DNA from: Impatiens glandulifera
Taxonomy: Eukaryota; Streptophyta; Magnoliopsida; Ericales; Balsaminaceae
Assembly: GCF_907164915.1 (NCBI RefSeq)
Contig: NC_061863.1
Span: 46,535,382 to 46,599,381, forward strand
Length of the DNA stretch: 64,000 nt
Direction of reading: 5' to 3'
Shown here: in pieces, positions 7,175 through 61,740 of the stretch
Layout of the letters: each line of letters begins with the position of its first letter
Position numbering within the stretch: position 1 is the stretch's first letter
The notes under the pieces: generated by a model
Databases searched by the model: none
Told to the model about the DNA's origin: nothing
What the model saw: only the letters and a program-made list of their open reading frames with translations
Translations under genes and position numbers: made by a program

Positions 7175-7396
7175 CAGGGGCGGAGCCAAGTAAAAGCCGG
7201 CCCGGGCTGTAGCCCGGGTAGCCCTAATTAGACTGTATGTATTCATCAATAAATAGACTGTATGTATGGAAGGCATTGGCGACAACAAACTTGATTTATT
7301 TTGTTTGTTTATTTGATATTATTATAAAACTAGACCGGATAAATTTTTTTAATAAAAAATTAGCCCGGGTAGATTTTAAATCCTGACTCCGTTCTG
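7175..7396. mobile_element. Short non-autonomous hAT-like element (MITE)
   Basis: A 222-bp unit starts CAGGGGCGGAGCCA and ends with the imperfect inverse (TGACTCCGTTCTG). It is flanked by the near-perfect 8-bp duplication tgtatatg/cgtatatg. The 8-bp duplication and the CAGGG-type ends point to the hAT superfamily. It has no coding capacity and contains a GC-rich palindrome (gcccgggctgtagcccgggt) near its left end. Confidence 0.7.
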
Positions 7397-7399
7397 CGT

Positions 7400-13160: not shown

Positions 13161-15034
13161 TTGATTAAGCCCACCAGAGTTTTTGGAAGAAGTGAAGACT
13201 ATTATGATTGTCTATATTTTGAAAATCGATTTTTTTTTTGACATATTGGATTTGTGTTAATGTGGAAATTGTTAGATTATAGTGACCCTTATGGATTTTG
13301 ACCTAGACTCGTGGTGCAATAAAATAAAATCTTAACTATTTGATATTGAGCTCATTGAGCCAGTTATGACCTATAAATATATGGTCTTCGTTAAGTTTTA
13401 TTAATACACACAATATTTGTTATTATTTTTCTCTCTCTAAATTATAATTTTCTATTTTAACCATAATGAAAAGTTTCTTTTTCCCGTAGTTTTCTTGTCT
13501 TGAGTTTCCAAGTAAATCTAGTGTTATTTATATTTTTTTTAGCAAAAAAGTTCATCTAGACGTATGTACTTATATAACTAGTTCAGTTAGACGTATGAAC
13601 TAATAAAAGTTCATTTAAACATACCTATTATTAAAAATTGACTCATCTAGCCTCTATTAATAACCATCATGGTTATTTTTTTTTTAAATTTAATATTTAT
13701 TAATTTAATATTCATTTTGTCTCTCTCCTTTTTTATTAATTAATTCATTTCTCTCCTTTTTTTTATTTTTTTTTTGTCTAATCTTTTTTTATTAATTAAT
13801 TAATTCGTTTATCTCTTTTTACTATTTTTTTTGTTATTAATTATTTTATTTTTATTTTTTCTACTATTTTGCTTTTTATTATGTCAACATAGATTATTTT
13901 AAAATTATTTGGTCTCTTTTAAGGATACTATAATATTTAATTAGTTAGTTTATAAAACAATATATCCATTTGTCCTCCCAGTGATTTTTACTCCAATTTA
14001 CATAAATATGATGAGTACATAATTTGTGTTCATCTTGTGAAAGAACAATTTGCACAACAAATAAAATTCTTTGAAAAAAGATTATAAAAGTAATTATTTA
14101 ATAAAAATATTTGAGCAAAATATAAAAATATTAGAGTATCAAAACATTGAATTACTTTATACATTACAATATTCAAGTATTAACCCGCAAAATAGACCAA
14201 CTAATTTTCAAATAATCTATATAAAGAAATAAAATAATAGAAAAAATAATAATTAAATAACAAAAGAAAAATAGTAAAAATTGATAAATGGATTAATTAA
14301 TTAATAAAAAAAACAAAAAAAAAAACAAAAAATAGTAAATAGATTAATTAATTAATTAAAGAAGAAGGAGAGAGAAAAAATAAATATTTAATTAATAAAT
14401 ATTAAGTTTTTAAAAAAAAAATTAACCATGATTATTAAAAAAAAACTAGATGAGGGGAAATTTGATCAAATGACCCTCATTCTCATATTTAACCTCAAAA
14501 ATATCAAATTTTATTTTTAACATTTTTTATAAAAATTTCCCCTTTTTACCCTTACTAACCTTTTTTTCCTTTTTTTTTTCTTCATCTTTTTCTTCTTCTT
14601 CTTCTTCCTTTTCCTTTTCCCCCATTTTCCCTTCCCGTTTTCTCCCCATCTCTTCTCGGCGACATTGCTCCAGCCCCAGCCAGCCATAGCCGCCATCCCC
14701 TATCTTCCCCAGCGATCTTGCTCCAGCTCTAGCCGCCGTTGCTCCCTGGAATCACAAACAGGCCGACTCCCGACGATCGCCAAGCCCTGGAGACGCTGAG
14801 CCCGCCGCTCGCCCAGCATTACTGAGGTTAGTAATGCTTAATTAGTTCTACTCCCCAATGATTTTTCCGTTTTTTGCATGTTGAGTATGAAGTTTTATGG
14901 TTTTAGTTTAGGATTTAGGCTTTAGTTAAGGTTTAGGGTTGAAATGCTTAGTTAGTTCTATTGTTTTGGTTTGAAATACTTTGATCCGAGAAATGTAGTT
15001 TAATATGAATGGTTTGTGAATGAGGCGTGTGAAT

Positions 15035-15190
15035 CGTGGGGGTTGTGCGAGGGGCGTGGGGTAGTGCGAGGGTGGGGCGTGGGCTTGGGTGTGGGTGGGG
15101 CGTGGAGCATGGGCGGGGCGTGTGCTTGGGCATGAGCGTGGGCGTGGGCTTGGGCGTGGGTGGGGCATGGAGCGTGGGCTTGGGCGTGGA
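15035..15190 (+). repeat. G-rich minisatellite in the left arm
   Basis: Irregular repeats of gggcgtggg/gggcttgggcgtgg make a run with many G triplets. On paper it can form G-quadruplexes. The mirrored C-rich copy is in the right arm, with a different unit order and length. Confidence 0.85.
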
Positions 15191-15254
15191 TTTAATTGCA
15201 ATTCAATTGCGTACCACGCAATATGTAAAACGAATTTAATAAATTTATTAATAA

Positions 15255-15328
15255 GCGGGGATAGTTCAGTTGGAAGAGTGTTTGACTGAATATTTGAAGG
15301 TCAAGTGTACAATCCACCTTCATCGGAA
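15255..15328 (+). pseudogene. tRNA-Phe (GAA) relic, full length
   Basis: The 74-base stretch aligns end to end with plant nuclear tRNA-Phe. The acceptor start GCGGGGATA, D-loop AGTTGG, anticodon loop with GAA and AAGGTC variable region are visible. Several stem pairs are lost: the third pair of the anticodon stem, a T-stem pair and two acceptor pairs. The B-box reads GTACAATCC instead of GTTCGATCC. Many changes are C-to-T or G-to-A, as methylated DNA decays. It is not expected to be functional. Confidence 0.8.
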
Positions 15329-15420
15329 AAGTTTTTTTTTCTATTGGAAATTTTAAACAAACCATGTGACATCCCTGGTAAAACAGAGTTGTTATGCTGT
15401 AATGGATTCCTTATCTAAAA

Positions 15421-15789
15421 CTGACTTTCAGATCTTCACCAGGATTAAAGTTTTTTACCTTCAGATTCGATTTCAAAACCTCTAATTCGAATCGCAATCA
15501 AACAGGATTATCACCGAGACCACAAAATGAGAATAAAGTGAAAGTACTGAAGAAAATGAAGTCTATCAAGTAAGTAGCTAGTAAATCGATACGATTGATT
15601 ATATGGAATTGAAGATTAATGAATTGACTATTTAGGTTACCGTTCTATAGAAGATGGCCTCACGGTGAGATTGCGAGGAGAGGAACGGTATCGCTGGATA
15701 TAAGTAATTGTAATGATCTGAGTCTTGATTTGAAGAGCGACGCAGATTCAGTGGAAGGCGTTCGATCTCAATCTATGGATATGGATTAA
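15421..15789 (+). pseudogene. Captured gene piece with two exon-like blocks and an intron
   Basis: An open frame from 15421 to 15569 (ending VKVLKKMKSIK) continues after a clean GTAAGT...TTTAG intron (15570-15635). It resumes as LPFYRRWPHGEIARRGTV and later SLDLKSDADSVEGVRSQS, to a stop at 15789. Composition and codon use look like ordinary plant coding sequence rather than transposon. I do not recognise the protein. The intron shows that the piece was taken from genomic DNA, not from mRNA. Confidence 0.55.
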
Positions 15790-15959
15790 ATGTCTTCAGT
15801 ACTATCAACACATAATATAAAATTGACAATTATGGTTTATGGTATCAATTTAGACGACTTGCGGAACTTCCATGAAACTCGTTTTTCATTTTACTATTTG
15901 GCTTTTTGGGTGGAGAACTGGACAAGGAGATATGTTTAAGAATGCATTTAACTGAATTT

Positions 15960-16565
15960 CCTGGTAAATGTCATATTTCACAATGATATCCTAGGACTCT
16001 GTCTTGAAGGTGTGCTTCAATGAATTTTCTCATTCAAAATTTTATGACGGCAGCAGTGTTTTGTTCCAGCTTGGAAATTTTATATTTCACAATGATATAT
16101 TAGGACTCTGTCTTGATGGTGTGCTCCAATGAATTTTCTCATTCAAAATACTATGACTTTAACAGTGTTCTGTTCCAGCTGGGAAATTTTATACTGTTTG
16201 GAAAATTATGAACCAATTAGTGAATGGAGTAAGAGGTGTTAGAAGATCCTTTGATTCATGTGACTTGCGATGATATGATATACCGAGTGCGAATACTCTA
16301 GAGCTCCATGGAACACCCCTGTTTTACTTAATTCTGCAGCTCATATTTGGCTTCTTTGACAGGGAGGGGTAGAAAAGACAATATGTCTAAGAATACATTT
16401 TACCATTCATGGATGTTATAACTGAATTCTCTCTATATTCTGCCTGGGAATTGTCATATTCCACAATGATAGACATTTAACTCTTTGTCATGATGGTGTT
16501 TCAATGGATTTTCTCATTCATAATACTAGGTCTGCAAGAGTGTTAATGACGTTCTGTCTGATATG
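15960..16565. repeat. Imperfect three-copy repeat of about 110 bp in the element's centre
   Basis: The order atatttcacaatgatat, actctgtcttgatggtgt, aatgaattttctcattca, agtgttctgt recurs from about 15971, 16081 and 16454. The first two copies are adjacent and the third is displaced by about 250 bp. Confidence 0.75.
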
Positions 16566-16983
16566 AACCAATTAGTGAATGGGTAAGTGTTAAAAGATTC
16601 TTTAATTTCTTCTGCTTGGAAATTGACTTGCACTCGTTTGTTAATGCATAATGTGTCCACAATAAATGCATAAGAGAGTGTATTGTGTTTGGGCATACTT
16701 TAGAAGAAGGAACTCTGCTAGCGGCTTATGTTGGAGTTTTATTTGATGCTATTATTTTGTCACATATATATACTTCAATATATTTGTATTATTGTTATTA
16801 AAAATAACTGTTAATGTTGTTTCTAAAACATTTTGTTCTATTTGAATTGATATATGAGATCTCTTTCATTTTTTGAGATGATGTGTTTTTTTTCTTCATT
16901 GTCTTTTTTTAAGAACTTTTCTTCTAGTTTTTAATGTTAAATTTTAATTTGTACACTTTTAGAATACTCTAATTTGCATTACA

Positions 16984-17029
16984 CCTTCAGATCTTCAGTT
17001 TGACGCTCTCCCAACTGAGCTATCCACGC
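16984..17029 (-). pseudogene. tRNA-Phe relic, 5' half only
   Basis: On the minus strand the right arm ends in GCGTGGATAGCTCAGTTGGG, then GAGAGCGTCAAACTGAAGATCTGAAGG in pieces. This is the first 46 or so bases of tRNA-Phe up to the variable loop, where homology with the left arm stops. It is closer to the functional gene than the left copy. Confidence 0.8.
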
Positions 17030-17094
17030 TTATTAATAAATTTATTAAATTCGTTTTACATATTACGTGGTACGCAATTGAATTGCAATTAAAT

Positions 17095-17205
17095 CCACGC
17101 CCCACCCACGCTCCACGCCCAAGCCCACGTCCCGCCCACGCTCCACGCCCCACCCACGCCCCTCGCACAACCCCCACGCCTCACCCCCACGATCCACGCC
17201 CCATT
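17095..17205 (-). repeat. C-rich minisatellite in the right arm
   Basis: This is the inverse of the 15035-15190 repeat, with cccacgctccacgcc-type units. It is shorter than the left copy, so the two arms have changed repeat number independently. Confidence 0.8.
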
Positions 17206-18185
17206 CACAAACCATTCAGATTAAACTACATTTCTCGAATTAAAACATTTCAAACCAAAACAATAGAACTAACTAAGCATTTCAACACTAAACCCTAACT
17301 AAAACCTAAATCCTAAACTAAAACCCTAAAACCATAAAACTTCATACTCAACATGTAAAAAACGGAAAAATCATTGGGGAGTAGAACTAACTAAGCATTA
17401 CTAACCTCAATAATGTTGGGCGAACGTCGGGCTCAACATCTCTGGGGCTTGGCGATCGTCGGGAGTAGGCCTGTTTGTGATTCCAGGGAGCAACGACGGC
17501 TGAGGTTGGAGCAAGGTCGCCGGGGAAGATAGGGGGACGACGGCTGTGGCTGGAGCAATGTCGTCTAGGGAGTCGCCGGGGAAGAGAAGGGGAGAAAAGA
17601 GAAAACGGGAAGGAGAAATGGGGGAAAAGAAAAAGGAAAAGGAAGAAGAAGAAAAAGAAAAAGAAAAAGAAAAAGAAAAAAAATGTTAGTAAGGGTAAAA
17701 ATGGAAAAATTTTTAAAAAAAAGGTTAAAAATAAAAATTGATTTTTTGAGGTTAAAAATGGGAATGACCCTCTTTTGAGGGTCATTTGATCAAATTTCCC
17801 TAGATGGACCAATTTTTAATAGTACGTAAATGAATATTTATTAGTTCATACGTCTAAATGAGCTAGTTGTACAAGTATATACATACGTCTAAGTGATCTT
17901 TTTTCTTTTTTGTTTATTGTTACTATGTCTTTTATTTATCTTGGTTAGTCTTAGATCTATATCATTTTCTTTAACAAATATTTTAAATTAATATATAAAA
18001 AATAATATTTCATCATTTAAAGTGATAATAATATTTATATGATTAATATAGTTCAAAATTTTATCTTATTTTTAAATTTAACCGTTTCAAATCTTATGAA
18101 TGAGACCCGCAAATTAACCACCCGACCCATTTACAATAACAAAACAAATATTGTGTTTCAGTGCAAAGACTTAGTAATTTAATAA

Positions 18186-18923: not shown

Positions 18924-19423
18924 NNNNNNNNNNNNNNNNNNNNNNNNNNNNNNNNNNNNNNNNNNNNNNNNNNNNNNNNNNNNNNNNNNNNNNNNNNNNN
19001 NNNNNNNNNNNNNNNNNNNNNNNNNNNNNNNNNNNNNNNNNNNNNNNNNNNNNNNNNNNNNNNNNNNNNNNNNNNNNNNNNNNNNNNNNNNNNNNNNNNN
19101 NNNNNNNNNNNNNNNNNNNNNNNNNNNNNNNNNNNNNNNNNNNNNNNNNNNNNNNNNNNNNNNNNNNNNNNNNNNNNNNNNNNNNNNNNNNNNNNNNNNN
19201 NNNNNNNNNNNNNNNNNNNNNNNNNNNNNNNNNNNNNNNNNNNNNNNNNNNNNNNNNNNNNNNNNNNNNNNNNNNNNNNNNNNNNNNNNNNNNNNNNNNN
19301 NNNNNNNNNNNNNNNNNNNNNNNNNNNNNNNNNNNNNNNNNNNNNNNNNNNNNNNNNNNNNNNNNNNNNNNNNNNNNNNNNNNNNNNNNNNNNNNNNNNN
19401 NNNNNNNNNNNNNNNNNNNNNNN
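18924..19423. other. Assembly gap of exactly 500 N
   Basis: A round-number run of N. It is a scaffold placeholder, so the true distance is unknown. Apparent open frames crossing it are meaningless. Confidence 0.99.
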
Positions 19424-19681
19424 TCTTTTTTCTTTCACTTTCTTTTTTGCACCTTAACATCCAAGCCAACTCTTGCCCATTTACCCAAAACATACACACT
19501 CACATATTGTCTTATGGTCCCGAGAAGATGAGATTTTATTTTTACGTAACTTATTTTAGATTTGTATATAAAATAATCGTTTAAGCAACATACCAAATGA
19601 GGATAAAGAACCACCCAATGAATTCTAGTTAAAATTATAAAATTACAAAACAACATGTAAAAACATTCACACTATACAAAT

Positions 19682-20533
19682 TGTTGGAATTTTTAAACTA
19701 GTTCTATAAATTCCATTAATGAATGGAAATTAGAATGTGGGTAATAAAATCAAATTCACATGAAATTCAAACGTGAATTAAAGGGTGAAATTTGATCCAA
19801 ATATATAATTTAAATCAATTAATTTAAATTAATTGATCTAAAATGCCTTGATGACCAATTAACAAAATGTTGTTAATTTGTAGTGTAACTTACATGAGTT
19901 TGTTATTATTATTATTATTATTATTTGTTATGATAATTTATATTATTATTAACAAATTAGAAAACCATGTAACATGCAACGTTAGTATTGAATTGTAAAT
20001 GCCTTAATTGTTTTGGCAAACAATTACTCTATAATGAAAAGAAAAATGTTAAGGTAATGAAGAGGCAAATAATGTCAACCGTTGGATCAAATGATGATTT
20101 TATTTAGTGGTTTAACTTTTCAACAATATAAGACCTCTCATCTCTAATCAAAAACTCACTTCATCCTTAATTTTTCTCACTCTAGAATTCCAAAAGCTCT
20201 CTTCTTATTTTGTGAGTGTTCTTCGAGTTCTTCGCTCGATATTTTCCATTGAAACCCGGTGATAGTTCAGGTACACTGATCAAGCTCAACGAGTAGTGAT
20301 TTCAGTGCAGAATCACTACTGGATTTATTGTACCTTGGGAGACAGCCATCTACGATAAGCTCCAGCACAAACGGGAGACGATGGAACTGTTTTAAAGGAA
20401 ATATGTCTAACACATGCCTCGAGTCAACATCTCAATCAGTGATTTCGTTTTTCATATATTTTATTTGTTTCATTTATTTGTACATCATTTTATATATATT
20501 TCTATAATTTATTTCAAGACAAGATTTCTAACA
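19682..20533 (+). repeat. Left LTR
   Basis: Begins TGTTGG and ends TTTCTAACA. It includes an ATT trinucleotide run, a region with tataagacctctcatc that could be a TATA/start site, and ttatttcaagacaagattt at the end. It is nearly collinear with the right LTR. Confidence 0.88.
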
Positions 20534-22866: not shown

Positions 22867-24560
22867 TTTATTTTGTAGAAATCAAAAGAAATCAGACATG
22901 ATAAAATGACAGTAGTCATTTACGTTGATTTCTTTTGTAGAAATCGGACGTGATAAAATGACAGTAGTCATTTACGTTGATTTCTTTTATAGAAATCGGA
23001 CGTGATAAAATGACATTAGTCATTAACGTTGAAACCATTCCAATTTCTTGTATAGAAATTATGAGATGAATGGAATGATAAATGATTTCTTTATAGTAAT
23101 CAGACTTGTTAAAATGATTATAGTCGTTGAAATTGAAATATTCCAATTTCTTAGGCAGAAATTATGAGATGAATGAGTGCCCATAACAATGTCTTATATA
23201 GAAATTTGATCTGTCAAAAAGATTTTAACCATGGATGTTAGAATGATTCTAATTTCTTGTGTAGAAATTATGAAATAAAATAGGGCACTTAACGATTTCT
23301 CATGTAGAAATTTAATTTTTTAAAATGACTTTATCATTTATATTTTGAAGCATTTTAATTTCTTCTATAGAAATTATGTGATTAATAATGACAGAAAATG
23401 AAGATCATATGTATAATGAGATTAAATAAGTTGTTTGTGTTAAAACTTATTCTAATCATGCATTTAAAGATATACGACTATGTTAGTCGAAATTATCTTT
23501 GCAAAAATTGTCTCGGTGAAAACAATCTATCCAAATTTATTTTGAGAGTGCATACTCGCTTCACGTCGATTATTGTTCAAAATATGGCAATGTAAGTATT
23601 TTGATTAAGACATGAAATATATTTATAGTTATATTTAATTTGATTATGTGCTAATTGATTATTAATATAAATCATGCATATTAGCTATTAATATGATGAT
23701 TCATATTATTCATAATAAGTATGATTATCTATAAATTTATATACATATATAAATTAAGATTTATTTTCTATCTATTTTTATTTTAATAGATAATTTTGAA
23801 ATTTATCACAAATCATGAGTTCTTTGATTAACAAAAATCTGTTATAGAATGTTAAAGGTCATCTAATTAATTAAGAAACGAATAATTAATGACATGAATA
23901 TTTATTTATATAATTAGTTAGTTTTATATTTGATTAAAGATAAATGGTCAACATTATAATTAAGTGTAATAATTAATATTTTAATTAATTATCATGTATT
24001 TTTTAAATGTATTTTTAATGATAAATGAAATTGTATATATATATATATTTAATAATATATGACATATTATTTATTTGATTACGTTTCTATGTTATTGACT
24101 ATATATATTATAGTTGTTTTGTTGTGGTGACTAAAGTTAATGAAGCAATAATATACAATATCATATATATGGATATATTAATTTTGGTTTAATATAATAT
24201 ATTTGATATACATTGATCAACGCATCATTAAGACTTACTTAATTTGATGATTTTGAAATCAAATAATTACAAGGAAAGTCTTTTTTTTGATTTGAGAATA
24301 ATGTGACAAACGTGCCGATATTGCGGGATGCAAATATGCAACCGAAAATAAATGTTTAAGCGGCTTCGTCTAAAGATGCTTGACACATTATGATTTCTTT
24401 TGTAGAAATCATGTGATATGGTGAATATTTATTTGATTAAATATTCTAATTTCTTTGATAGAAATTAAGTGTTGAAATAAATATTTTAATAGATTAAATA
24501 TTTTAATTTCTTATGTAGAGATTATGTGAAGAATGATTTATATATGAATAAACATTCTAA
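22866..24560. repeat. Run of hairpin-forming repeats built on TTTCTTNTATAGAAA
   Basis: Short inverted repeats of the form gatttcttttgtagaaatc or aatttcttgtatagaaatt occur a dozen or more times. The first three units (22870-23030) are spaced about 55-60 bp apart and nearly identical, with tgataaaatgacagtagtca between them. Later ones are drifted, and a second cluster lies at 24385-24580. Each unit can fold into a 7-8-bp stem. Stretches between clusters are AT-rich without a readable gene. Confidence 0.75.
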
Positions 24561-24819: not shown

Positions 24820-25440
24820 AGAGAAATATGTTTTATATAAAAGATAAAGTTGCGCAACTTTACAAAAGGAAAGAAAATAACAAGAAAATGTCTTGTTTAT
24901 ATTTGCCGAGTTGGTGCTCAAATCAATATTTAAAATTTGAGGATTTTGAAATCAAGAAACGTGTCATATTTTTACATTACTTTCATAAAATTTTTGAAAA
25001 ATCAATGTCTTCAAAAAAAATTTATGAAATAAATGAAAATGAAAGTTTATAAAGTCTTGATATGACTTATAACAAATTTTATAATAATGATAAGAAAATT
25101 TCATCATATTTTTATTAAAAAGTGGATGTGACAATTATATATATCATGAAGACAATGAAAATTATTTCATTACGTGTTTTTTGTACGATATTTTTATCGT
25201 TGAAAATTACGATAAAAATGATTAAATCCATTAAGGATAAGAATTACACTACACGAAATATCATGTTGTTATCAAATGATATATTGATATTATTAAATGA
25301 AAGACTTTACGTCTAAAAGTGAATATGTTTACACTTAGAAGTGCAATATACGTATGGAAATCTTCTAATAAACTTATGATGGATAGATTAAATATTATAA
25401 TCTATATTTTTGACTTATGTCGAAAAATAAAATATTTATA
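24820..25440 (+). pseudogene. Degenerate open stretches, possibly copia reverse transcriptase
   Basis: Broken frames read phrases such as KKIYEINENESL and FEDFEIKKRVIFLHYF, which may be remains of pol. The resemblance is too weak to assign a domain. A drifted copy of part of this stretch lies at 31435-31830. Confidence 0.3.
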
Positions 25441-25589
25441 TGTAAAATATATAATCGTTTACACGAAGGCAGAATAGTTCAAAGACATTTTGTCTACTAG
25501 TTAGTAAAGTAAACAATATTTTCATAAAACAAATTAAATGATAAGCATGTACGAATGACTATGCTTCTTATTAGAAGATGTTCCAAGGT

Positions 25590-25899: not shown

Positions 25900-26336
25900 A
25901 TTATATTGACTTGAAAGTTATTATTGGATTAATCTTATAAGGAAACAATATATATTTTGACGAGGATAAGCATATCGCTTTTAATGATTCTTTGTGAGTA
26001 AAGAGATCACATATGTGAGGGAGAAGTAGGGCCGCTTCGAAAGAATTGCACGGCTCAGTTCTAGACCCTCTCACAGAACCAGGCGTGTGTTCTATGGCCA
26101 AAATGGACACAACCATGAGAGCTTGTCATGTATCAGAGAGAATTCTATGTGAAAGTGTGTAATCGCTTACACAAATGGCAGAATAGTTCAAGGACATCGA
26201 GTCTACTAATCGGCTAGTAAAGTTATATACTTTCATAAGGGAAGGTTCAAAGGGTTACACCTACCTATCCTATGTACAATTCAACTGTTGAACCTTTCAC
26301 CGGGTTAATCTTTCAATTTTCATTAATATGGGGAAT
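25900..26336. other. 3' untranslated part of the copia element
   Basis: Lies between the pol relic and the right LTR. A segment at about 26157-26224 (aatcgcttacacaaatggcag...) repeats one at 25450-25510, so part of this tail was duplicated into the interior. A polypurine tract abuts the LTR. Confidence 0.6.
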
Positions 26337-27196
26337 TGTTGGAATTTTTAATCTAATTCTATAAATTCCATTAATGAATAGAAATTAGAATGTGGGTAAT
26401 AAAATCAAATCAAATTCACATGAAATTCAAACGTGATTTAAAGGGTGAAATTTGATCAAAATGTATAATTTAAATCAATTAATTTAAATTAATTGATCTA
26501 AAATGCCTTGATGACCAATTAACAAAATGTTGTTAATTTGTAGTGTAACTTACATGAGTTTGTTATTATTATTATTATTATTATTATTTATTATGATAAT
26601 TTATATTATTATTAACAAATTGGAAAACCATGTAACATGTAACGTTAGTATTGAATTGTAAATGCCTTAATTGTTTTGGCAAACAATTACTCTATAATGA
26701 AGAGAAAAACGTTAAGGTAATGAAGAGGCAAACAATGTCAACCGTTGGATCAAATGATGATTTTATTTAGTGGTTTAACTTTTCAACAATATAAGACCTC
26801 TCATCTTTAATCAAAAACTCAGTTCATTCTTAATTTTTTTCACTCTAGAATTCCAAAAGCCCTCTTCTTATTTTGTGAGTGTTCTTCGAGTTCTTCGCTC
26901 GATATTTTCCATTGAAACCTAGTGATAGTTCAGGTACACTGATCAAGCTCGACGAGTAGTGATTTCAGTGCAGAATCACTACTGGATTCGTTGTACCCTG
27001 GGAGACAGCCATCTACGATAAGCTCCAGCACAAATGAGAGACGATGAAATTATTTTAAGGGAAATGTGTTTAACACATGCCTTGAATCAACATCTCAATC
27101 GGTGATTTCGTTCTTCATATATTTTATTTGTTTCATTTATTTGTACATCATTTTATATATATTTCTATAATTTATTTCAAGACAAGATTTTTAACA
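26337..27196 (+). repeat. Right LTR
   Basis: Starts TGTTGGAATTTTTAATC and ends TTTTTAACA. It is slightly longer than the left LTR because of small indels, for example one extra ATT-repeat unit and an extra tcaaa. Confidence 0.88.
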
Positions 27197-27330: not shown

Positions 27331-27560
27331 CTGTGCCGCTTCGCGTAACGCGATGTGTCTTCGCGTGATGATTGTGCCGCTTCGCGTGTGGACTGTGCCG
27401 CTTCGCGTAACGCGATGTGTCTTCGCGTGATGATTGTGTCGCTTCGCGTGTCGACCGTGCCGCTTCGAGTAACGCTGTGTGTCTTCGCGTGATGATTGTG
27501 CCGCTTCGCGTGTCGACCGTGCCGCTTCGCGTAACGCGATGGGCCTTCGCGAAATGTGAA
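27331..27560. repeat. 62-bp minisatellite with CTTCGCG core
   Basis: Units begin at 27331, 27393, 27455 and 27517, exactly 62 bp apart. Each contains three cttcgcgt blocks, giving a strongly CpG-rich island in AT-rich DNA. Because 62 is not a multiple of 3, the repeats give overlapping Arg/Ala/Ser-rich frames that are not genes. Confidence 0.9.
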
Positions 27561-30240: not shown

Positions 30241-30994
30241 AAAATAAAACATCTCCAATTTTAGTGGGATTCTAACAATTTCTTATTACGTAGAAATTTA
30301 ATTTATCAAAATGATGTTGTTATTAATATTCTGAGGTATTTTAATTATTTATATATAAATTATGTGATTAATCATGACAGAGAATGAATGTCATTGGTAT
30401 AAGGAGATTAAAAAAATTGTTTGTGTTAGAGACACGACTATGTTAGTCAAAATTATCTTTGCAAGAATTGTTTCGGTGAGAACAATCTACCTATATTTGT
30501 TTTGAGCATGTATAGTCGTTTCATGTCGATTATTATTAAAACATGGCAATATAAATGTAAGTGTTTCAATTAAAATATGAAATATATTTATAGTCATATT
30601 TTATTTGATTGTGTTATTAATCGATTATTTATATATATAATGCATATTAGCTAATAATATGATGATTCATTTCATTATGTAGGATTATTTAGCCATTTAT
30701 TTATATATATATATATATATATTATAAATATAAAGATTTATGATATATTGTTTTAATAAGATAATTTTGAAATTTGTCATAAAATTTTGTGTATTTTAAA
30801 TGATAATTTTTTTTTTTTATAAAAAGTTAAAGCTAGTCTAATTAATTAGAAAATCAATAATTGATGACCTAAATAATTATTTATACAATTTTTATATTTG
30901 ATTAAAGATAAATGATTAATATTTTAATTAATTATAATAACTTATCTTTTAATTAATTATTATGTATTTTATAGAGGTATTTTTAATTATATAT

Positions 30995-31026
<32 letters not shown>

Positions 31027-31870
31027 TATGTATAAATGATTTATTCATTTAAATATTTATAATAATAGTTATCTTATTTATTAAATAATAAGTATAACAA
31101 AATAATATTAAATATTAAACTTATTAAATAATTTTTTTTAAATTCTTTATTTGTCTCTATTATATAAATTATAATTTAAAATTATATATATATATATATA
31201 TTATTTATAATATATCTAATATTTAAAAAATAACTGATATAAATGTATATGATTAAATTATTACTTGTTTACCGGTTAAACCGCTAGAAAAATAGTTCAA
31301 CCGAAAACCGAACCGTTTAACCGGTAAAAAACCGATTAATCAGAATCGTTAGAACCGGTTAACCAATAAACCGGTAAAATGAAATCGGTAAGTTATCGAT
31401 TCAGTTGGGTTATCGGTTTTCCGGTTTTTTTTGCATAACCCTAATGACTTGTAAAATTTTTTATAATAATGATATGAAAATTTGATCATAATTTGTCTAA
31501 AAATGAATGTGACAATTATATATATCATAAAGACAATAAAATTTATTTCATTACGAGAATTTTGTACAATATTTTTGTCGTTGAAAATTATGATAACAAT
31601 GATTAAATTCATTAAGGATGTGAATTGCACTATATAAAATATTATGTTGTTATCAAATGATATATTGATATTATTAAATGAAAGATTTTACATCTAAAAG
31701 TAAATATGTTTATACTTAGGAGTGCAATCTACGCATGAAAATCTTCTAAGAAAATTATAATTGATTAAATGTCATAATTTATATTTTTGACTTATTTCAA
31801 AAAATAAAACATTTTTATGAAAAATATACACGAAGGAAAAATAGTTCAAAGAGTATGATATTATGATACG
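30240..31870 (+). repeat. Drifted second copy of the copia interior, without LTRs
   Basis: 30290-30760 follows 23290-23760, including cgactatgttagtc and aattatctttgcaa. 31435-31860 follows 25055-25480, including the stretches around agtgcaatctacg and acacgaaggaaaaatagttc. No LTR flanks it. The middle is interrupted at 31040-31440 by another element. Confidence 0.7.
31040..31440. mobile_element. Truncated relative of the 28055-29042 element
   Basis: The right half (attacttgtttaccggttaaacc to ttttttttgcataaccct) matches 28840-29042. The opposite end is missing or decayed. Confidence 0.6.
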
Positions 31871-32471: not shown

Positions 32472-32853
32472 TCTATATACACAGTGATGCTTAAAGTCAA
32501 TAAGCACCACTCCACATCATCATCAAGTATAATCCACATTATCATCAGATATTTTCTCTCTTCTCTCTCATATTCTCTTTTTCTTAATTAAATTTTAGAT
32601 TTTAAAAATTATAAATATATTTTATCTTATATTTTTTTTCTTTCTTAATTATTCCACCCTCATTAATTATATATATATATATATATATATATTCACTAAT
32701 TATAAAATATATATTTTTTTATTAATAATTTATATATATATATATATTATATTATTATTATTTTTCATCATTAATTTATATAAATACATTTTATCTTTTC
32801 TTATACAATTTCTCTCATTATATATATATATATTTAATATAAAAATCAACTAA
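32472..32853 (+). mobile_element. Helitron-like 5' segment, copy A
   Basis: Begins TCTATATACACAGTGATGCT and continues taaagtcaataagcacc. TC followed shortly by TGCTTAAAGTC is typical of plant Helitron 5' ends. The sequence is collinear with 37195-37600 and, at its start, with 59750-59850. It is interrupted at its right side by the Mutator-like element at 32854. Confidence 0.55.
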
Positions 32854-33539
32854 GAAAAAGGAAAGGATAAGCTCAACGAATGATCAGCGAAAATAAGGCC
32901 ACGAATCCTACGTGGTCTGCCACGTAGGTAGGAGAGAGATTTTTTTTTTAAATATAATATTAAAAAACATTTCAATTCACTCTCTTTATTCTCTTTATTC
33001 TTTTCATTTTTCATTTCCGGTGATATCTCTCTTTTTTCTTTGGCGATTTCGTTTTCCGACTTCTGCGACTTCTTCTTTTCTCTTCATCATCGTCCGATCA
33101 AAAATGATAAGTGTTTTCTCTTTCCTTCGTTTTATCTTCCCTTCGTTTCGAAAATGATAAGTGTTTCATTCTACTTCTCTTCTTTTCAAGTTGGTTCAGA
33201 ATCATCGTCCGACAAGATTCTAAGGAAAATAAATACACCATAATATCCATCCTTTTAGAAACGGGTCTGTTTAGCTATTAGGTTTAGCTTCATTTTGGGT
33301 TTAGCTGTAGAACAATTTCGAATAAGGTTGTAAAAGAGTGATTTTGATATTTTAGTGATTAGAGTTTAACTTTATTTTGGGTTTAGCTGTAGAAACGATT
33401 TTGAATAGGGTTATAAAATAGTGATTTTGATATTTTAGTAATTAGGGTTTAGCGTAGAAACATTTTTTATATCAATATTCTGTTTAGCGATTAGAGTTTA
33501 GCTGCATAAACGATTTCGATTAGGGTTTTAAAAAAGAGT

Positions 33540-34735
33540 CCTGAAACCACCATTTCTAGTCCCAAAACCACCATTTTTATCCTGAAATCATCATTTTTTT
33601 GTTCCGAAACTACTATTTCTTGTCCCAGAACTACCTCTTTAGTCCCGAAATTACCATTTTTTGTCCCGAAACCCAAATTTTTTGTCCTGAAACCAATATT
33701 TCTTGTCCCAAAACCACAATTTCTGGTCCCGAAATCGTCATTTCTTGTCCCGAAACCACAATTTCTAATCCCAAAACTATAATTTCTTGTCCCGAAACAA
33801 CTAATTATGGTCCCGAAATCATCATTTCTTGTCCCAAAACCATTAATTATGGTCCCAAAATCATTATTTATTGTCCCAAAACTACCATTTATAGTCACAA
33901 AATTACAATTTCTTGTTCAAAAACTATCATTTCTTGTCTCGAAATCACCATTTCTAGTCCCGAAATCACCATTTCTAGTCCCGAAATCACCATTTCTAGT
34001 CCCGAAATCATAATTTCTTATCCCAAAACCACTATTTCTTATCCCGAAACCACTATTTATTGTCCCGAAACCACAATTTTTCTCCCAAAATCATCGTTTT
34101 TTTTGTTCCGAAACCACTATTTCTTGTCCTGAAACCACAATTTTTTATCCCGAAACCACTATATCTTGTCCCGAAACTACCATTTCTAGTCCCGAAACCA
34201 CTAATTATGGTCCCAAAATCATCAATTCTTATCCTAAAACCACCATTTTTTGTTCTGAAACCACAATTTATTCTCCCAAAATCATCATTTTTTTTCCCGA
34301 AACCACAATTTCTTGTTTCAAAACCACAATTTCTTGTCCTAAAACCACCATTTCTGGTACCAAAACCACTAATTATGGTCCCGAAATCATAATTTCTTAT
34401 CTTGAAACCACCATTTTTTATCCCGAAATCACAATTTCTGGTCCCAAAATCACTATTTTTGGTCTCGAAATTACAATTTCTAGTCCCGAAATCATTATTT
34501 CTAGTCCCGAAACTTCCATTTCTTGTCTTGAAACCACTATTTTTTGTCCCGAAACCACAATTTCTTGTCATAAAACCACCATTTATGGTCCTAAAACCAT
34601 CATTTCTAGTCCCAAAACCATCATTTTTAGTTCCGAAACCACCATTTTTAATCCCAAAATCACAATTTCTAGTCCCAAAATCATCATTTTTGGTCCCGAA
34701 ATCACCATTTCTGGTTCCAAAATCACCATTATCTA
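33540..34735 (+). repeat. 21-bp minisatellite, left arm (roughly 57 units)
   Basis: The unit is cgaaaccaccatttctagtc plus c, with many variants. 21 bp keeps the frame, so both strands show long artefactual open frames. The minus strand gives a heptad of the form N-G-x-F-G-T-R. Unit identity is highest near 33960-34010. Confidence 0.92.
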
Positions 34736-35149
34736 TGGTTAACAAGGAAGTGGATTCTAAGAAACAAGCAAATGTGAAGAATAACAATGATCTATTGAAT
34801 TATTTGAGATCATTGGAATCTCATATGGTTTGCCCTAATTAAAAATTTCTCCATTCTTTCTTGATTCTTCTTAAACTTGAAACATTGTTGGGTTTTTGAA
34901 TAGATGATTGAACTGTCACCATCTTCATTAGAAGTTGAGAAGATTATTCATCTACTACAATTTTTTAAAGAAGAAGAATCAAATGCAGAGAACATAAGCA
35001 ACATCAGCAACACTACACGTGATTATCTCGACATCATTATTATCCTTAACTTTCTCTTTTGATCATTACTCAGGTGTATGTTAATGAGTCATCACTTGAG
35101 AGGTCCGGAGAATAGATTACATTTGAGTTGTGATGTTGGTTTATTGTAA
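34735..35149 (+). pseudogene. Captured pieces of a DUF760-like plant gene
   Basis: Exon-like block 1 (34735-34827) reads NNNDLLNYLRSLESHM. A GT...TAG intron ends at 34903, and block 2 (from 34904) reads MIELSPSSLEVEKIIHLL and later TTRDYL. A further acceptor at 35073 precedes CMLMSHHLRGPENRLHLSCD, ending in a stop at 35149. From memory this order resembles plastid DUF760-family proteins, where LRSLEPHM, ELS-SS-EVE-VI and LGHHLRGLENRLHLSC occur in that order. Introns are kept, so the capture was from genomic DNA. The reading frame is broken between blocks, so it is not a working gene. Confidence 0.55.
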
Positions 35150-35659
35150 AGAATATATATATATATATAATATTTGCTCAAAAATTTTTAGTAAACTTGA
35201 TTGTCTCTTCATTGCTTTGTTTTTATACAAAATCCATAGATGATCGATGGAGCAAGGATCCCCATGGTCTAGTTTCACTCATGACTTCCAAGTAAACTAT
35301 TTTCTTTCACTAGATTTGAAAATGATTGGATTGCTAAACTTAGGGAGAGAGGATTAATAAAGAGTAAAGAAATAGATGATGTTTATGGAAAATAAGGGTA
35401 GTATGAAGAAGCGTCAACAAGAAATTTACATAATTAAAAACTTTAATAATTTACAAAGTTACAATTTGTCCTTTATAGCACCTTTAGAATACAACTTATT
35501 ATACATTTCAGGAGATCTCGAATAATCTCATTTATTCATTAACTTGATCAATAAGAAAATCTGGATTTTCATACATGACTTGCAAATAAAATTAACATCA
35601 CAATAAGATCATTGGTTTAAAAAAGAAATTAACTAGACATAAAAGATCTTATAAAAACC

Positions 35660-36447
35660 ATTTTTTGGGTCCGAAATAACCACTTCAAGGCCCCAAATCA
35701 CCATTGCGGGTCCTAAATGGTGATTTCGGGACTATAAAGGGTGATTTCGGAACAAGAAATGGTAATTTTGGGACTAGAAATTATAGTTTCATAACTAGAA
35801 ATGGTGGTTTCGAGACAAAAAATGATGATTTCAGGACAAAAAATGTGATTTCGAAACTAGAAATGGTGATTTCGGGACTAGAAATGGTGATTTCAAAACA
35901 AGAAATGGTAATTTCGGGACTAGAAATGGTGATTTTAGGACTATAAATTTTAGTTTCGGGGACAAGAAATGGTGGTTTCAAGATAAGAAAAGGTGGTTTC
36001 GGGACTAGAAATAGTGGTTTCAGGACAAGAAATGGTGATTTTGGGACCAGAAATTGTGATTTTAAGACTATAAATTGTGGTTTCGGGATAAGAAAAGATG
36101 ATTTCGGGACAAGAAATAGTGGTTTAGGGACAAGAAATGGTTATTTCGGGACAAGAAATGATGATTTCAGGACCATAATTAGTGGTTTCGGGACAAAAAA
36201 TTGTGGTTTCAGGACAAGAAATTGTGGTTTCGGGACAAGAAATTGTGATTTTGGGATAAGAAATTGTGGTTTTGAGACAAGAAATTGTAGTTCTGGACAA
36301 GAAATCGTAGTTTCGGGATAAGAAATGGTGATTTTGGGACTAAAAATGGTAGTTTCAGGACAAGAAATATTGGTTTCAGGATAAGAAATGATGATTTTGG
36401 GACAAGAAATGGTGATTTCGAGACTAGAAATGGTAGTTTCGGGACTC
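35660..36447 (-). repeat. 21-bp minisatellite, right arm (roughly 37 units)
   Basis: The inverse of the left array, with units such as ggtgatttcgggactagaaat. It has fewer copies than the left array. Confidence 0.92.
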
Positions 36448-37149
36448 TTTTTTACGACCCTAATCGAAATCGTTTATGCAGCTAAACCCAAAATGCAGTT
36501 AAACCCTAATCGTTAAACAGAATATTGATATAAAAAAATGTTTCTGCGCTAAACCCTAATCGCTAAAATATCAAAATAACTATTTTACAACCCTATTCGA
36601 AATCGTTTCTACCGCTAAACCCAAAATGAAGTTAAACCCTAATCGATAATATATCAAAATCACTTTTTTACAATCTTATTCGAAATCATTTCTACAGCTA
36701 AACCCAAAATGAAGCTAAACTTAATCGCTAAACAGATCCGTTTCTAAAAAGATGGATAACATTTTGTATTTATTTACCTTGGAATATAGTCGGACGATGA
36801 ACATGGACCAGCTTGAAAAGAAGAGAAGTAGTATGAAACACTCACCATTTTCGAAATGAAGGGAAGAGAAAACGAAGGAAAGAGAAAACACTTACCATTT
36901 TCGATCGGACGACGATGAAGAGAAGAAAAGAAGTCACGGAAGCCGGAGAGCGAAATCGCTAGAGAAGAAAGAGAGAGGTCGCCGAAAATGAAAAGAAAAA
37001 TAAAATAAAGAGAGGAAACTGAAACTTTTTTAATATTATATATTTTAAAAAAAATCCCTCTCCTACCCACGTGGCCTACCACTACCACGTAGGATTTGTG
37101 GTCTTGCTTCGCTGATTAATTGTTGAGTTTATCATCTCTCATTAACTAA

Positions 37150-37204: not shown

Positions 37205-37540
37205 TATAAAGTCAACAAACACAACATTAATCCACATCATTATCAAGTATAATCCAAGTCGTCATCATATATTTTCTCTCTCATCTCTTATACTCTTTTT
37301 CTTAATTAAATTTTAGATTTTAAAGATTATAAATATATTTTATCTTATATTTTTTTTTCTTAATTAATTTTTTCCTCATTAATTATATATATTCTCACTA
37401 ATTATAAAATATATATTTTTTATTAATAATTTATATATATATATATTAAATGTAGTTACCTTATATATATTATATTATATTATTTTTCATTGTTAATTTA
37501 TATAAATACATTTTATCTTTTATTATACATTTCTTCTCTT

Positions 37541-37574
<34 letters not shown>

Positions 37575-37690
37575 ATATAAAAATTAATTAATTAGTAATA
37601 AATATTAAATACAAAATATATATACATACACAAAATAATAAAATTATTTTAGCGGTTAAAGTGTTCACCTTTTATGCTTGAGAGTTGACT
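37150..37690 (+). mobile_element. Helitron-like segment, copy B
   Basis: After a TA and AAT microsatellite (37157-37204), aaagtcaacaaacacaac begins a segment collinear with copy A (32490-32850). It runs further, to a tRNA-like phrase tttagcggttaaagtgttc at 37650-37680 that also occurs at 60190 and 60890. Confidence 0.5.
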
Positions 37691-54480: not shown

Positions 54481-54825
54481 TTACCTGTTTGTCAGCATTA
54501 TACATTTTTCTTTCTAAATGGGTTTTTAACACATATATGTATAAATAATATGTTACATTTATTGAAATTTGCTTTCAAAAGTAAATAAATTAAGGGCCCA
54601 TATATTCTTCTTGGGATTGCTGGTAAAAAGCAGCATTCCCAATTCTCCTCTCCTCCTCTTATAAGTAATTCCAATTATTTCTCCTCTTCCCCATCCCCAT
54701 AAGCTTACACCAACTCATCTTCTTCATCATCTTCTTCTTCACTGGTTTCAAGACATACATTATAAAGAAGGGTTTAGGGTTTTGAGATGGTGTGGATGAA
54801 ACAATATGTAAAAAGTGGTCCTCTT

Positions 54826-54940
54826 TGTATTCTTCCACAGCTTTCTTGAACTGCATCCTTCTAAATTCACCTTATGGGTGTAGTTATGTTGATCATGATT
54901 CAATGGGCGCGGTTCAATAAAGCTGTGGGATGATACAGAT
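54826..54940 (+). ncRNA. MIR396 microRNA precursor
   Basis: The 21-nt stretch at 54833-54853 (starting TTCCACAGCTTTC, ending TTGAACTG) matches plant miR396a as I know it. About 58 nt later, 54912-54932 (starting GTTCAATAAAGCTG) matches its star strand. The two arms pair along their length, with flanking gtat/atac extending the stem and a terminal loop of about 55 nt, as required for Dicer-like processing. miR396 represses GROWTH-REGULATING FACTOR mRNAs and so limits leaf cell proliferation. The upstream CT-rich stretch (54640-54740) probably belongs to the primary transcript. Confidence 0.93.
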
Positions 54941-56205
54941 GGGATCATTAATTAAACACATGATCTGGATTCAATTATGTCAATGAGGATAATATTAATA
55001 TTCAAGATCTAGCTAGCTAGATTATTGGATCTGCTTCAAATCCTACTTAATTCATGGTAAATATCACTCATTTCAATTAATGTAATACTAATGTGCCTTT
55101 TCATGGAAACCCTAGCTAGCTAGCTAGCTAGTTACTTGTTGTGTTTTCTTCTTTTCATTACTTATTTTTATTTTAGTAACTTTTTCATTTTTCATAAGTT
55201 ATATTTATTTACTTTATTCTTTGTAACATCATTAATCTTGAGTCAATGCAACATAGTAATCGGAACATAATTATTGATCATCAAAACAAGAAACGCGAAA
55301 AAAGGAGTGCAGCAAGACATGGGCCATATCGAGAAGTACTCAAAATAATAGTCTTCACTTATTCTTTACTCTTTTTATCTTCCTATTTTATGATTTTTTT
55401 AGTTTGATTATTGTCTCCACGTTTTCTTTTATGTTGCTGGATAACTCTTATAGACAATATGTAAGACCTAGCTAGGAGAAAATTATAAAGATTTTGGGTT
55501 GAATTAATATTGCATATCCTTATTAATTTTACATTTTATAACTTTAACTACTAGCTATTTGTTTCTACTTTCTACATGTGTGTTTGTTTGCCTTTAACAT
55601 GGCTCATGATGATGATTGATGAACATGTTAACATGCAGTATTTTTAAATATTGAAACCATCTTATTAGTTCATATTTAATATTTTGTGATTGTGATGATT
55701 ATATAAATAGTGATACTAGTAATCACAATAAATATTATATAATAAGAAATAATAGAGAAAATAAAATTTGGAAGAATGAATGAAAATAAATAACAGTGAC
55801 ACAATTTGATTGATTAAAAAAAAATATAAAAATTACTTTATTATTTTTCTTTTTTCCATCAAATGACTCACATTCCATTTCTGTCACTCCTCTTATATAA
55901 TACACTTAATTATGTAAAAATAAAATATAACTTAAATTTATATATTTGTTCAACTTGACTTGATTTATAATGGTTGTATTAGGTTCACATTATAATTTTT
56001 ACTGTATAATTTAATTAAAATAGTGTCTCATCAATTTATAAAAAGTAAATTATAACTTAAAAAGTTAATAATGTTTTTAGTGATTTTTAAGTTAGTATTG
56101 TGTACTTCTTAGGAGTTTAAGTTGTATCTTGTTTACAATTTAAGATTAGGGACTAATAATTCTTAAAAAAAAATATTGATACTACAATTTTTGAAATACT
56201 AAATT
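54941..56205. other. Downstream of MIR396, intergenic
   Basis: Contains the primary-transcript tail and a ctagctagctagctagctag run at 55111-55131. No coding gene is seen. Confidence 0.5.
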
Positions 56206-60255: not shown

Positions 60256-61740
60256 CAAATGATAAACATCTGAAAATGTGAGGGCGGAATTAGTGGTTGT
60301 TTGGCAAACATTTGAAAGTCTGAGGTCGGAATTAGTGGTTGGTATGACGAGCATTTGAAAATGGTGATGGGTGGTTTGTCGTGTGTGATGTCGGAATTAG
60401 TGGTTGGTATGACGAACATTTGAAAATGTGAGGTCGGGTGATGGGTAGTTTGTCGAGTGTGAGGTCAGAATTAGTGGTTGGTTTGGAAAATATTTGAATG
60501 TCTGAGGTCTTAAGATGGAGGTCGGGTGGTGGGTCGAGTGTGAGGTCGGAATTAGTGGTTCGTATGACAAGCATTTGAAAATGTGAGGTCGGGTGATGGG
60601 TGGTTAGTCGAGTGTGAGGTCAGAGTTAGTGGTTAGTTTGGCAAACATTTGAAAGTTTGAGGTCTCGAGATGGAGGTCGGGTGGTGGGTCGAGTGTGAGG
60701 TCCGAATTAGTGGTTCGTATGACAATCATTTAAAAATGTGAAGTCACGAGATGGAGGTTTAAATGTTCACATTTCATGCTGAAGATTAGGGTTCGAATCC
60801 CAATAAATGCGGATTTATATATTAAATATAATATATATATATATACATACACAAAATAATAAAATTATTTCAACAATCTTAATTGGTTTAGCGGTTTAGG
60901 TCTTCAAATTTCATGCTGAAGAATAGAAATGTGAGGACGGAATTAGTGTTGGTTTGACGAATATTTGAAAGTCTGAGGTCTTAATATGGAGGCCGGTGGT
61001 GGGTGGTTTGTCGAGTGTGAGGTCGAAATTAGTGATTGGTATAACGAGCATTGATAGACATCTGAAAATGTGAGGGCAGAATTAGTGTTGGTTTAGCGAA
61101 TATTTGAAAGTTTGTGGTCTTGAGATGGAGGTCGGGTGGTGGGTGGTTTGTCGAGTGTGATGTCGAAATTAGTGGTTGGTATGATGAGCATTTAAAAATG
61201 TTTTAATCAAATGATAGACATCTAAAAATGTGAGGGCAGAATTAGTGTTGGTTTGGCAAATATTTGAAAGTCCAAGGTCTTGAGATGGAGGTCGGATGGT
61301 GGGTGGTTTGTCAAGTGTGAGGTCGGAATTAGTGGTTGGTGTGATGAGCATTTGAAAATGTAAGGTCGGATAATGGGTGGTTTGTCAAATGTGATATTGG
61401 AATTAGTGGTTGGTATGACGAGCATTTGAAAATGTGAGGTCGGGTGATGGATGGTTTGTCGAGTGTGAAGTCAGAATTAGTGGTTGGTATGACGGCCATT
61501 TGAAAATGTGAGGTCGAGTGATGGGTAGTTTGTCGAGTGTGAGGTCGAAATTAGTGGTTGGTTTGGAGAACATTTGAAAGTCTAAGGTCAGAATTAGGGG
61601 TTGGTATGACGAGCATTTGAAAATGTGAGGTCACGAGATGAAGGTCGGGTGGTGGGTGGTTTGCCGAGTGTGAGGTTAAATTTAATGGTTGGTTTGACGA
61701 GCATTTAAAAGTGTGAGGTCACGAGATGGAGGTCGGGTGG

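Follow-up and report, generated by a model that had tools for sequence, protein, structure and literature searches.

An insertion with inverted arms

How did a segment of the Impatiens glandulifera genome come to carry two inverted arms, more than half of each made of a 21-bp minisatellite, around a broken piece of a host gene? The segment occupies positions 32854-37140 (4,287 nt) of the window, i.e., the whole 64-kb stretch of DNA that was analysed, and it is very probably a non-autonomous foldback-type Mutator-like element (MULE) with Pack-MULE cargo, one copy of an old, multi-copy family in this species. An earlier note had recognized a MULE, its 9-bp target duplication and its long, composite inverted arms; this assignment is upheld by an empty site, by copies with the same ends, and by a transposase-bearing relative.

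MULEs duplicate about 9 bp (8-11) of their target. The putative duplications, ATCAACTAA on the left (32845-32853) and ATTAACTAA on the right (37141-37149), neither assigned a strand, are identical at 8 of 9 positions, near-perfect as first described. Could such a match be fortuitous? The flank of the element exists in a second, adjoining copy, detected as a direct repeat at 37207-37566, and this paralogous empty site (37207-37600, + strand) contains a single 9-mer at 37583-37591: positions 37574-37600 read AATATAAAA-ATTAATTAA-TTAGTAATA, with flank bases matching 9/9 on either side. A chance match is dismissed because of this single 9-mer and its matching flanks. A site of this kind is what insertion predicts; the earlier note, which counted an empty site lacking the duplication against the element, had worded its test in reverse. 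Other copies of the family terminate in GAGAAATGATAAACTCAAC; the right end of the element differs from it by one mismatch, and the left end has about five bases more, which is why the left boundary at 32854 was taken from the target duplication.

Architecture of the arms

The long terminal inverted repeats expected of a MULE measure 1,877 bp on the left and 1,426 bp on the right; the former estimate of about 1.9 and 1.5 kb is adjusted accordingly. The oppositely oriented 21-bp tandem repeats are confirmed by TRF and by segmentation. The left array (33538-34730, + strand, consensus GTCCCGAAACCACCATTTCTT) contains 57 units by segmentation and 56.8 copies by TRF at period 21; the right array (35715-36445, - strand) contains 35 units and 34.9 copies, and TRF places the two in opposite orientations. 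They fill 63.6% of the left arm and 51.3% of the right, so that "well over half", once claimed for both, is true of the left arm alone. Composite inverted arms with tandem repeats are a hallmark of Foldback elements.

Outside the arrays, the outer left arm (32854-33537, +), which has family matches, and its right counterpart (36446-37140, -) are 88.4% identical over 666 aligned columns. Both arms also contain, outside the 21-bp array, an 83-bp repeat in about 2.2 copies by TRF (33270-33451, +; 36548-36732, -). Past the cargo, about 2.7 array units recur in left-arm orientation (35657-35713, +; score 51, against a maximum of 33 among the 631 window pieces that served as controls), and array orientation flips at a turning point at 35688-35733 (18-bp arms, 10-bp spacer, no strand assigned). 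Imperfect palindromes at the termini are another Foldback trait; the hairpins found here, likewise unstranded, are subterminal, not terminal: one at 32907-32928 (z -2.62; 6/200 shuffles fold as well) and one at 37066-37093 (z -1.92; 7/200).

The order of units is common to both arms only weakly (27/2000 shuffles in one test, 20/300 in another) and is at chance level when anchored at the outer ends (272/2000 shuffles); local higher-order repeats in the arrays do not exceed those in shuffles (family-wise 0.42 and 0.67). Minisatellites and duplications are frequent in the 64-kb window, and the 21-bp unit was not found elsewhere in it at 15/21 ungapped.

Family copies in the genome

A genome search with the outer arm gave at least 40 matches (43 match rows; 40 of 645 candidates were scored), and a terminus pattern was found at 45 genome places, against 0 for a control pattern. 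Many copies have the same boundaries, whose absence the earlier note would have taken as grounds to give up the element. Among 23 other elements, TRF detects the 21-bp array in 19 and none in four, and 13 have the cargo of 32854-37140; L021, L023 and L025 are copies without it; further loci, chosen by interior search, have the array in 14/14 cases and the last cargo piece in 11/14. Arm arrays differ in length among copies, the shortest having about 3 units and the longest 57, and the cargo fragment sits at an equal position in many of them. Large copies owe their size to other insertions: frames read by eye are copia-like in L014 and L016 and LINE-like in L010.

Target duplications are less uniform. 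An exact 9/9 duplication, AATATATTT, lies at the element ends of L010+L011, and the duplication is unclear in most other copies. With exact ends, 11 other two-armed elements give 9/9 in one case and 7/9 in two; one of these two reaches 8/9 when shifted, and two more do so only after a shift or end loss (all shifts being without control). A convincing duplication is absent in 6 of the 11. Some copies are segmental duplicates with common flanks (L016, L017 and L018; L019, L024, L027 and L028), so insertions are fewer than copies.

Might the structure not be a transposon at all, and instead a minisatellite that was locally inverted and duplicated next to a gene fragment? Such an origin would suit a window rich in minisatellites and duplications and a family with segmental duplicates among its copies; it is refuted, within the reach of this analysis, by the empty site, the 9-bp duplication, and the copies with the same ends, which lie on other chromosomes too, and hardly deserves credence.

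Transposase-bearing relatives

If the family consists of MULEs, where is the transposase? Within 32854-37140, the ORF pieces scanned gave sub-cut-off matches only. L065, a relative of 9.2 kb, combines the family ends with five array blocks and, between these ends, FAR1 (44.1 bits, cut-off 28.1), MULE (119.2 bits, cut-off 27.6) and SWIM (23.0 bits, cut-off 19.6) domains; repeats of the 21-bp type lie in its noncoding parts. Its transposase frames are interrupted, and it is 73% identical to 32854-37140 at the ends (380 columns) and about 71% in the array. At this level of identity, L065 is a relative of the element rather than its demonstrated mover. L065 has a second gene region, on the minus strand, where no Pfam domain passed the cut-off in the scanned pieces; by its look, it may resemble the ULP1-type genes of FARE2-like MULEs. 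The repeat also occurs, with units partly 22 bp long, in another transposase copy, L067, one end of which resembles that of the family with 3 mismatches. Among the 41 array places and 150 MULE domains listed, 5 array places lie less than 2 kb from a MULE domain; uniform placement expects 0.09 such pairs within 5 kb.

The Mutator-like assignment is supported by L065, which combines family ends, the same repeats, and all three domains. The 9-bp duplications also speak against an origin in another superfamily, with a P/Galileo-like or hAT-like foldback that merely happened to yield 9 bp; P and hAT elements duplicate 7-8 bp. Foldback architecture does occur with unrelated transposases, that of Galileo being described as P-type, yet L065 largely refutes such an origin, which is very unlikely. 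For the Mutator-like family, a FAR1-MULE-SWIM-type transposase acting in trans on the ends probably moved the non-autonomous copies, and the arms probably grew through slippage of, or unequal exchange between, repeats already present in transposase-bearing relatives.

A captured host gene fragment

Between the arrays lies the 3' end of a host gene, LOC124915689 (DUF760; parent protein of 317 aa), taken over as DNA with its introns: cargo and donor locus are 90.6% identical over 405 columns, with both introns represented. On the + strand, the cargo comprises a piece of the third-last exon (34735-34827); a retained GT...AG intron that aligns with the donor intron (34828-34903); the next exon, with small deletions (34904-35027); what is left of the donor's last intron, which in this copy lacks its 5' part through deletion (35028-35073, boundary from alignment); the last exon up to the TAA stop (35074-35149); and sequence from downstream of the donor gene (35150-35348), the last part of which follows a jump of about 0.8 kb in the donor. 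An inner domain (35417-35650, +) common to other family copies, including the cargo-free L025, comes next. A host gene fragment in a non-autonomous MULE is what defines a Pack-MULE, and here the donor is located and the introns are kept; the earlier note did not mention this cargo.

Was the fragment captured more than once? At 13 of 423 columns, every cargo copy present has one and the same base where the donor has another, which fits the prediction of one capture. A single event probably put the fragment 2-3 units before the turning point, with the left array on one side and the inner domain on the other, after which the loaded element probably spread. The peptide used in the cargo search included about ten intron residues. 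A TGA considered as an in-frame stop in the cargo was rejected: by alignment, it falls in the donor's last intron.

A predicted hairpin

Can a strand of the element fold back over its arms, as Foldback elements do? The 4,287-nt strand has a predicted fold of -1,984 kcal/mol in which 1,252 left-arm bases pair with the right arm, the longest perfect helix is 36 bp, and 17 perfect runs reach at least 21 bp (all from one prediction, without a shuffled control). The very long double-stranded RNA expected from the arms thus survives insofar as they pair in the predicted fold; the hairpin is imperfect, and the transcript is hypothetical. Any transcript of the element would form this imperfect hairpin and could feed small-RNA silencing. 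By analogy with Mu killer, which is proposed to work via a long hairpin RNA, the arms might even function as a hairpin locus for silencing the transposase of the family, as the roughly 1,250 pairs of the predicted fold would allow; but this is improbable, given that the transcript and small RNAs are hypothetical, that no transposase coding sequence was found in the hairpin stem, and that the arms diverge by 11.6%.

Known relatives of the design

Arms of this build had been put forward as possibly undescribed, a claim that is not supported: repeat-built foldback arms are known on Mutator-type elements, as accounts of Tm1 and FARE indicate. Foldback elements have been described with composite inverted repeats that contain tandem repeats. 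FARE of Arabidopsis, a foldback for which a MULE-domain transposase is cited, resembles the balsam family in its plant foldback arms and in the presence of this transposase in some copies. FARE2 is its larger coding form; we know of no FARE with 21-bp minisatellite arms.

A close counterpart is Tm1, a Mutator/Foldback element of root-knot nematodes in which foldback design is combined with a MULE-type transposase and 9-bp duplications (PMC3169594). Tm1 shares with the balsam element composite, unequal arms with a short motif in variable number, and with its family the 9-bp duplications and the few transposase-bearing and many non-autonomous copies; unlike it, Tm1 lives in a nematode, uses a Phantom-type transposase, has far fewer units (1-9 of a motif of about 14 bp), and is described with no comparable host gene fragment (PMC3169594). 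Arabidopsis VANDALs are Mutator-like and, similarly to L065, have short-motif tandem repeats in noncoding regions of coding copies; in contrast to the balsam element, they are described with degenerate terminal repeats, a VANC gene, and no foldback arms (PMC10398659). Pack-MULEs and MULEs whose terminal repeats are in tandem offer parallels in the duplication of arm sequence and in the amplification of an element with a host gene fragment, but there the whole terminal repeat is reported as duplicated, whereas in balsam a 21-bp unit recurs dozens of times (PMC3310237). Drosophila Foldback, Galileo and Tetris are described with the same outer domain, tandem-repeat domain and loop, with copy-variable repeat number; they differ in being animal elements, with a Tetris unit of about 220 bp and a P-type transposase in Galileo.

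In the open-licence literature searched, as far as its texts were available, no MULE turned up whose arms consist of a 21-bp minisatellite. The unusual part is that a short minisatellite is common to transposase-bearing and foldback members. One genome holds the stages together: transposase-bearing copies with the 21-bp repeat in their spacers, repeat-armed foldback copies, cargo-free copies, the gene that served as donor, and copies that spread with their cargo. Two questions become directly testable as a result: by what route a Mutator-like element acquires foldback arms, and at which sites and with what frequency gene fragments are captured.

What is the 21-bp repeat?

Does the repeat do anything? 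It may be a working cis-element of the whole Mutator-like family, although we regard this as doubtful: dozens of putative protein-binding sites, two helical turns apart, would lie in noncoding parts of transposase-bearing copies and be multiplied in the foldback arms, where they might recruit the transposase or, by analogy, a VANC-like anti-silencing protein and thereby have favoured the foldback form. L065 and the proximity of arrays to MULE domains raise the probability of this idea: the same repeat is present within L065 as well as next to a further transposase copy, and arrays lie far nearer MULE domains than chance predicts among those listed. Unit spacing is tightly kept, at exactly 21 bp in 51/56 left and 31/34 right steps, and precedents are on record in Galileo and VANDAL, in the latter of which tandem motifs are described as bound by the element-encoded VANC protein in anti-silencing. 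The case is weakened because arrays preserve unit length anyway, L067 units are partly 22 bp, and TRF finds no array in four of the 23 other elements. Nor does the unit behave as a dyad-symmetric binding site, a candidate that was rejected: the half-sites of its weak dyad lack co-variation (p 0.59), and the dyad is perfect in only 17/92 units.

Other readings of the array were discarded. One frame of the left array is nearly stop-free (2 stops in 397 codons); a coding role was rejected, as column-wise reshuffling reproduces the counts of the three in-phase stretches that were examined (65/92 units; e.g., 1/17/0 observed vs 2.1/16.2/0). The match of this frame to a grass antifreeze beta roll in Pfam (20.3 bits, cut-off 30) is ascribed to repeat composition. 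Across all columns, changes from the unit consensus include 206 C-to-T or G-to-A vs 3 in reverse, a contrast that sharpens without the three hypervariable columns (14, 19, 21). No signature of methylation decay is read from these changes: the transition:transversion ratio of the arrays over all columns (1.9) is not above that of the outer arms (2.2), and CpG o/e is 1.05-1.11 in the arrays and 1.39-1.45 in the outer arms, depletion being confined to the interior (0.32).

Architecture of the Element and Its Insertion Footprint

The element at 32854-37140, bordered by ATCAACTAA and ATTAACTAA, has two arms of one design: each starts on the outside with a domain of ~0.4 kb, followed by an 83-bp repeat present ~2.2 times and then by a 21-bp array. 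The array takes up 1,193 bp of the left arm (1,877 bp; 57 units) and 731 bp of the right (1,426 bp; 35 units), in opposite orientations; the outer arms are 88.4% identical across 666 columns, with 11 gap openings. The element lies within one copy of an AT-rich head-to-tail duplication (32492-32841 and 37207-37566) whose copies are 92.7% identical over 328 ungapped columns. In the other copy, all nine flank bases are identical on either side, and the 9-mer occurs once. Because the region is AT-rich, this empty-site junction alone would be modest evidence; joined with the surrounding repeat, it makes a strong case. The borders, the opposite arrays, and the empty site bear out the earlier note, which had observed an element with 21-bp arrays at this position.

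Units resemble one another as much between the arrays (75.6% identity) as within the left (75.1%) or the right (76.5%): the within-minus-between difference, 0.003, was equalled in 291 of 1000 label shuffles. Either this diversity would predate the parting of the arms, or the arms may swap units. A unit order common to both arms gives a weak signal (27/2000 shuffles; 20/300 in a second test), and the outer-anchored order of the two arms is no better than chance (272/2000 shuffles). The arms are predicted to form a hairpin, with no cargo sequence in its stem. Long MULE terminal repeats are stated to be siRNA sources in an article on Arabidopsis VANDAL elements (PMC10398659); by analogy with such repeats and with Mu killer, the hairpin may feed silencing.

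Family Copies in the Genome

The window occupies C2:46535382-46599381 in the Impatiens glandulifera genome. The outer 447 bp, used as a query, gave at least 43 matches (40 scored of 645 candidates). Around the outer-arm matches, 23 other elements were read, 18 in a first set and five (L060-L064) in a second, with L010 and L011 counted as one element and L012 and L013 likewise. Flanks are common to L016, L017, and L018, and other flanks to L019, L024, L027, and L028; these are therefore segmental duplicates, and the 18 first-set elements represent ~13 sites. TRF found 21-bp arrays of at least three copies in 19 of the 23, and none in L024, L027, L061, or L063; array size ranges from ~3 to 48 units, versus 57 in the window element, and cargo is present in 13. 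Fourteen more loci (L046-L059), picked by an interior search, all carry 21-bp arrays, and 11 contain the last cargo piece. They form a second, abundant foldback subfamily, in which those 11 retain the end of the cargo only and arrays reach ~50 units.

Family copies share the end GAGAAATGATAAACTCAAC, a 34-base version of which occurs at 45 places with up to 3 mismatches (reversed control, 0). Target duplications at exact ends match at 9/9 bases in L010+L011 and at 7/9 in L012/L013 and L020; 8/9 is reached in L019 after a shift of 1, in L014 after an end loss of 7, and in L020 with shifts of 4 and 2. None was convincing in six other elements checked.

Origin and Position of the Cargo

The loop peptide matches DUF760 in Pfam at 20.3 bits (cut-off 20.2); a shorter form matches other families only, all below cut-off. 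A protein search admitting full-length proteins returned a single match among 21 candidates, the 317-aa product of LOC124915689, with E 2.0e-30 and identity at 81 of the 119 columns aligned (19 gaps); the gene is at C9:28992878-28994055. The cargo is 90.6% identical to this donor DNA over 405 columns, which run through one intron and a portion of the last one, whose 5' part is deleted in the window element; donor homology extends to ~35348. Compared with the donor, the cargo in 12 other aligned copies shows 85.8-91.0% identity, and compared with the window copy, 89.0-94.7%; at 13 of 423 columns the cargo copies present all share a state that differs from the donor. Such a pattern fits a single capture, which would have spread afterwards.

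Where did the fragment enter? In copies with both found side by side, the array ends within ~5-40 bp of the same cargo base. Past the inner domain (35417-35650) of the window element, ~2.7 left-orientation units lie ahead of the flip (35688-35733), where array orientation turns; their score is 51, and control maxima are 14 among interior pieces (n = 80), 33 among window pieces (n = 631), and 25 among simple shuffles (n = 500). Comparable blocks of 3-4 units precede the flip in L011, L016, L017, and L018 and in 5 of the 14 interior-search loci (L046, L050, L051, L052, L059). In the cargo-free L021 and L023, the two array orientations adjoin, though the stretch covered includes just one flanking outer arm in each; in L025 the inner domain is present and the cargo absent. 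Judged by these junctions, pre-flip blocks, and cargo-free copies, the cargo went in between the left array and what is now the inner domain, probably in an element already foldback in form.

Transposase-Bearing Relatives

PF10551 has at least 150 matches in the genome, all scored ones above the cut-off (150 scored of 2,920 candidates). A family terminus lies 6.9 kb from one of the matches listed. At this locus (C4:10274300-10284200), the element L065 spans 9.2 kb and is bounded on both sides by family ends (73% over 380 columns and 78% over 79 columns); it has 21-bp-type arrays at five places and a target duplication of 8/9 at exact ends, though in TA-rich sequence. Its ORF pieces match FAR1 (44.1 bits; cut-off 28.1), MULE (119.2; 27.6), and SWIM (23.0; 19.6), in an interrupted transposase frame. 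Together with the 9-bp duplications and the family ends, these domains uphold the earlier note's Mutator-like reading; judging from L065, a FAR1-MULE-type transposase would mobilise the element in trans. The transposase part has at least 40 copies (scored of 908 candidates), the others being 90-92% identical. Among the matches listed for both, 5 of 41 array places lie within 2 kb of a MULE domain; uniform placement of the listed matches predicts 0.09 pairs within 5 kb. L067, a piece beside another transposase copy selected as the best match, carries same-type repeats, partly of 22 bp, and an end that resembles the family's, at 3 mismatches. A second gene region of L065 (local 5038-7850, minus strand) resembles ULP1-type MULE genes by eye only and gave no Pfam match above cut-off in the scanned pieces.

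Comparison with Known Foldback Elements

The suggestion that the element belongs to an undescribed kind is unsupported. The nematode family Tm1 already combines tandem-repeat foldback arms, a MULE transposase, and 9-bp duplications (PMC3169594); FARE of Arabidopsis has been cited as a foldback that has a MULE transposase; and tomato has both tandem arms and an amplified Pack-MULE (PMC3310237). Three traits are particular here: the degree of repetition, with a 21-bp unit present as many as 57 times in a single arm; the occurrence of that repeat in transposase-bearing relatives too; and the position of the cargo. No published precedent for such a degree of repetition, sharing, or cargo placement was found in literature mostly outside subscription journals.

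Other Features of the Window

A second inverted-repeat element (14455-17800), with arms of ~0.8 kb that are 91.5% identical over 776 ungapped columns, contains telomere-like pieces and an array of the hexamer GGGCGT and has a near duplication, TAGATGAG / TAGATGGA (6/8). It adjoins an AT-rich palindromic stretch (13642-14454; 71.6% self-inverted match), and its flanks, once joined, match the other arm of this host palindrome. Homology of the palindrome resumes in 17800-17870; the insertion is therefore nested.

Three direct duplicates follow the same order at 6.4-7.0 kb spacing: 19679-20533 / 26334-27196 (95.8% identity over ungapped columns, as for the others), 23290-24075 / 30273-31045 (82.9%), and 25062-25485 / 31444-31852 (87.5%). 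A segmental duplication in tandem, either uneven in age or partly converted, may explain them. A 500-N assembly gap occupies 18924-19423. An ORF at 50343-51107 matches an I. glandulifera protein at 100% identity, with 89% of the query covered. A GC-rich 21-bp / 62-bp minisatellite (CTGTGCCGCTTCGCGTGACGA) at 27331-27551 has no evident relation to the element's arrays, and a large complex minisatellite region at 60256-62938 has periods of 74, 81, 88, and 155 bp. The sole Rfam match within the window is a MIR396 precursor at 54823-54941 (84.3 bits; gathering score 80).
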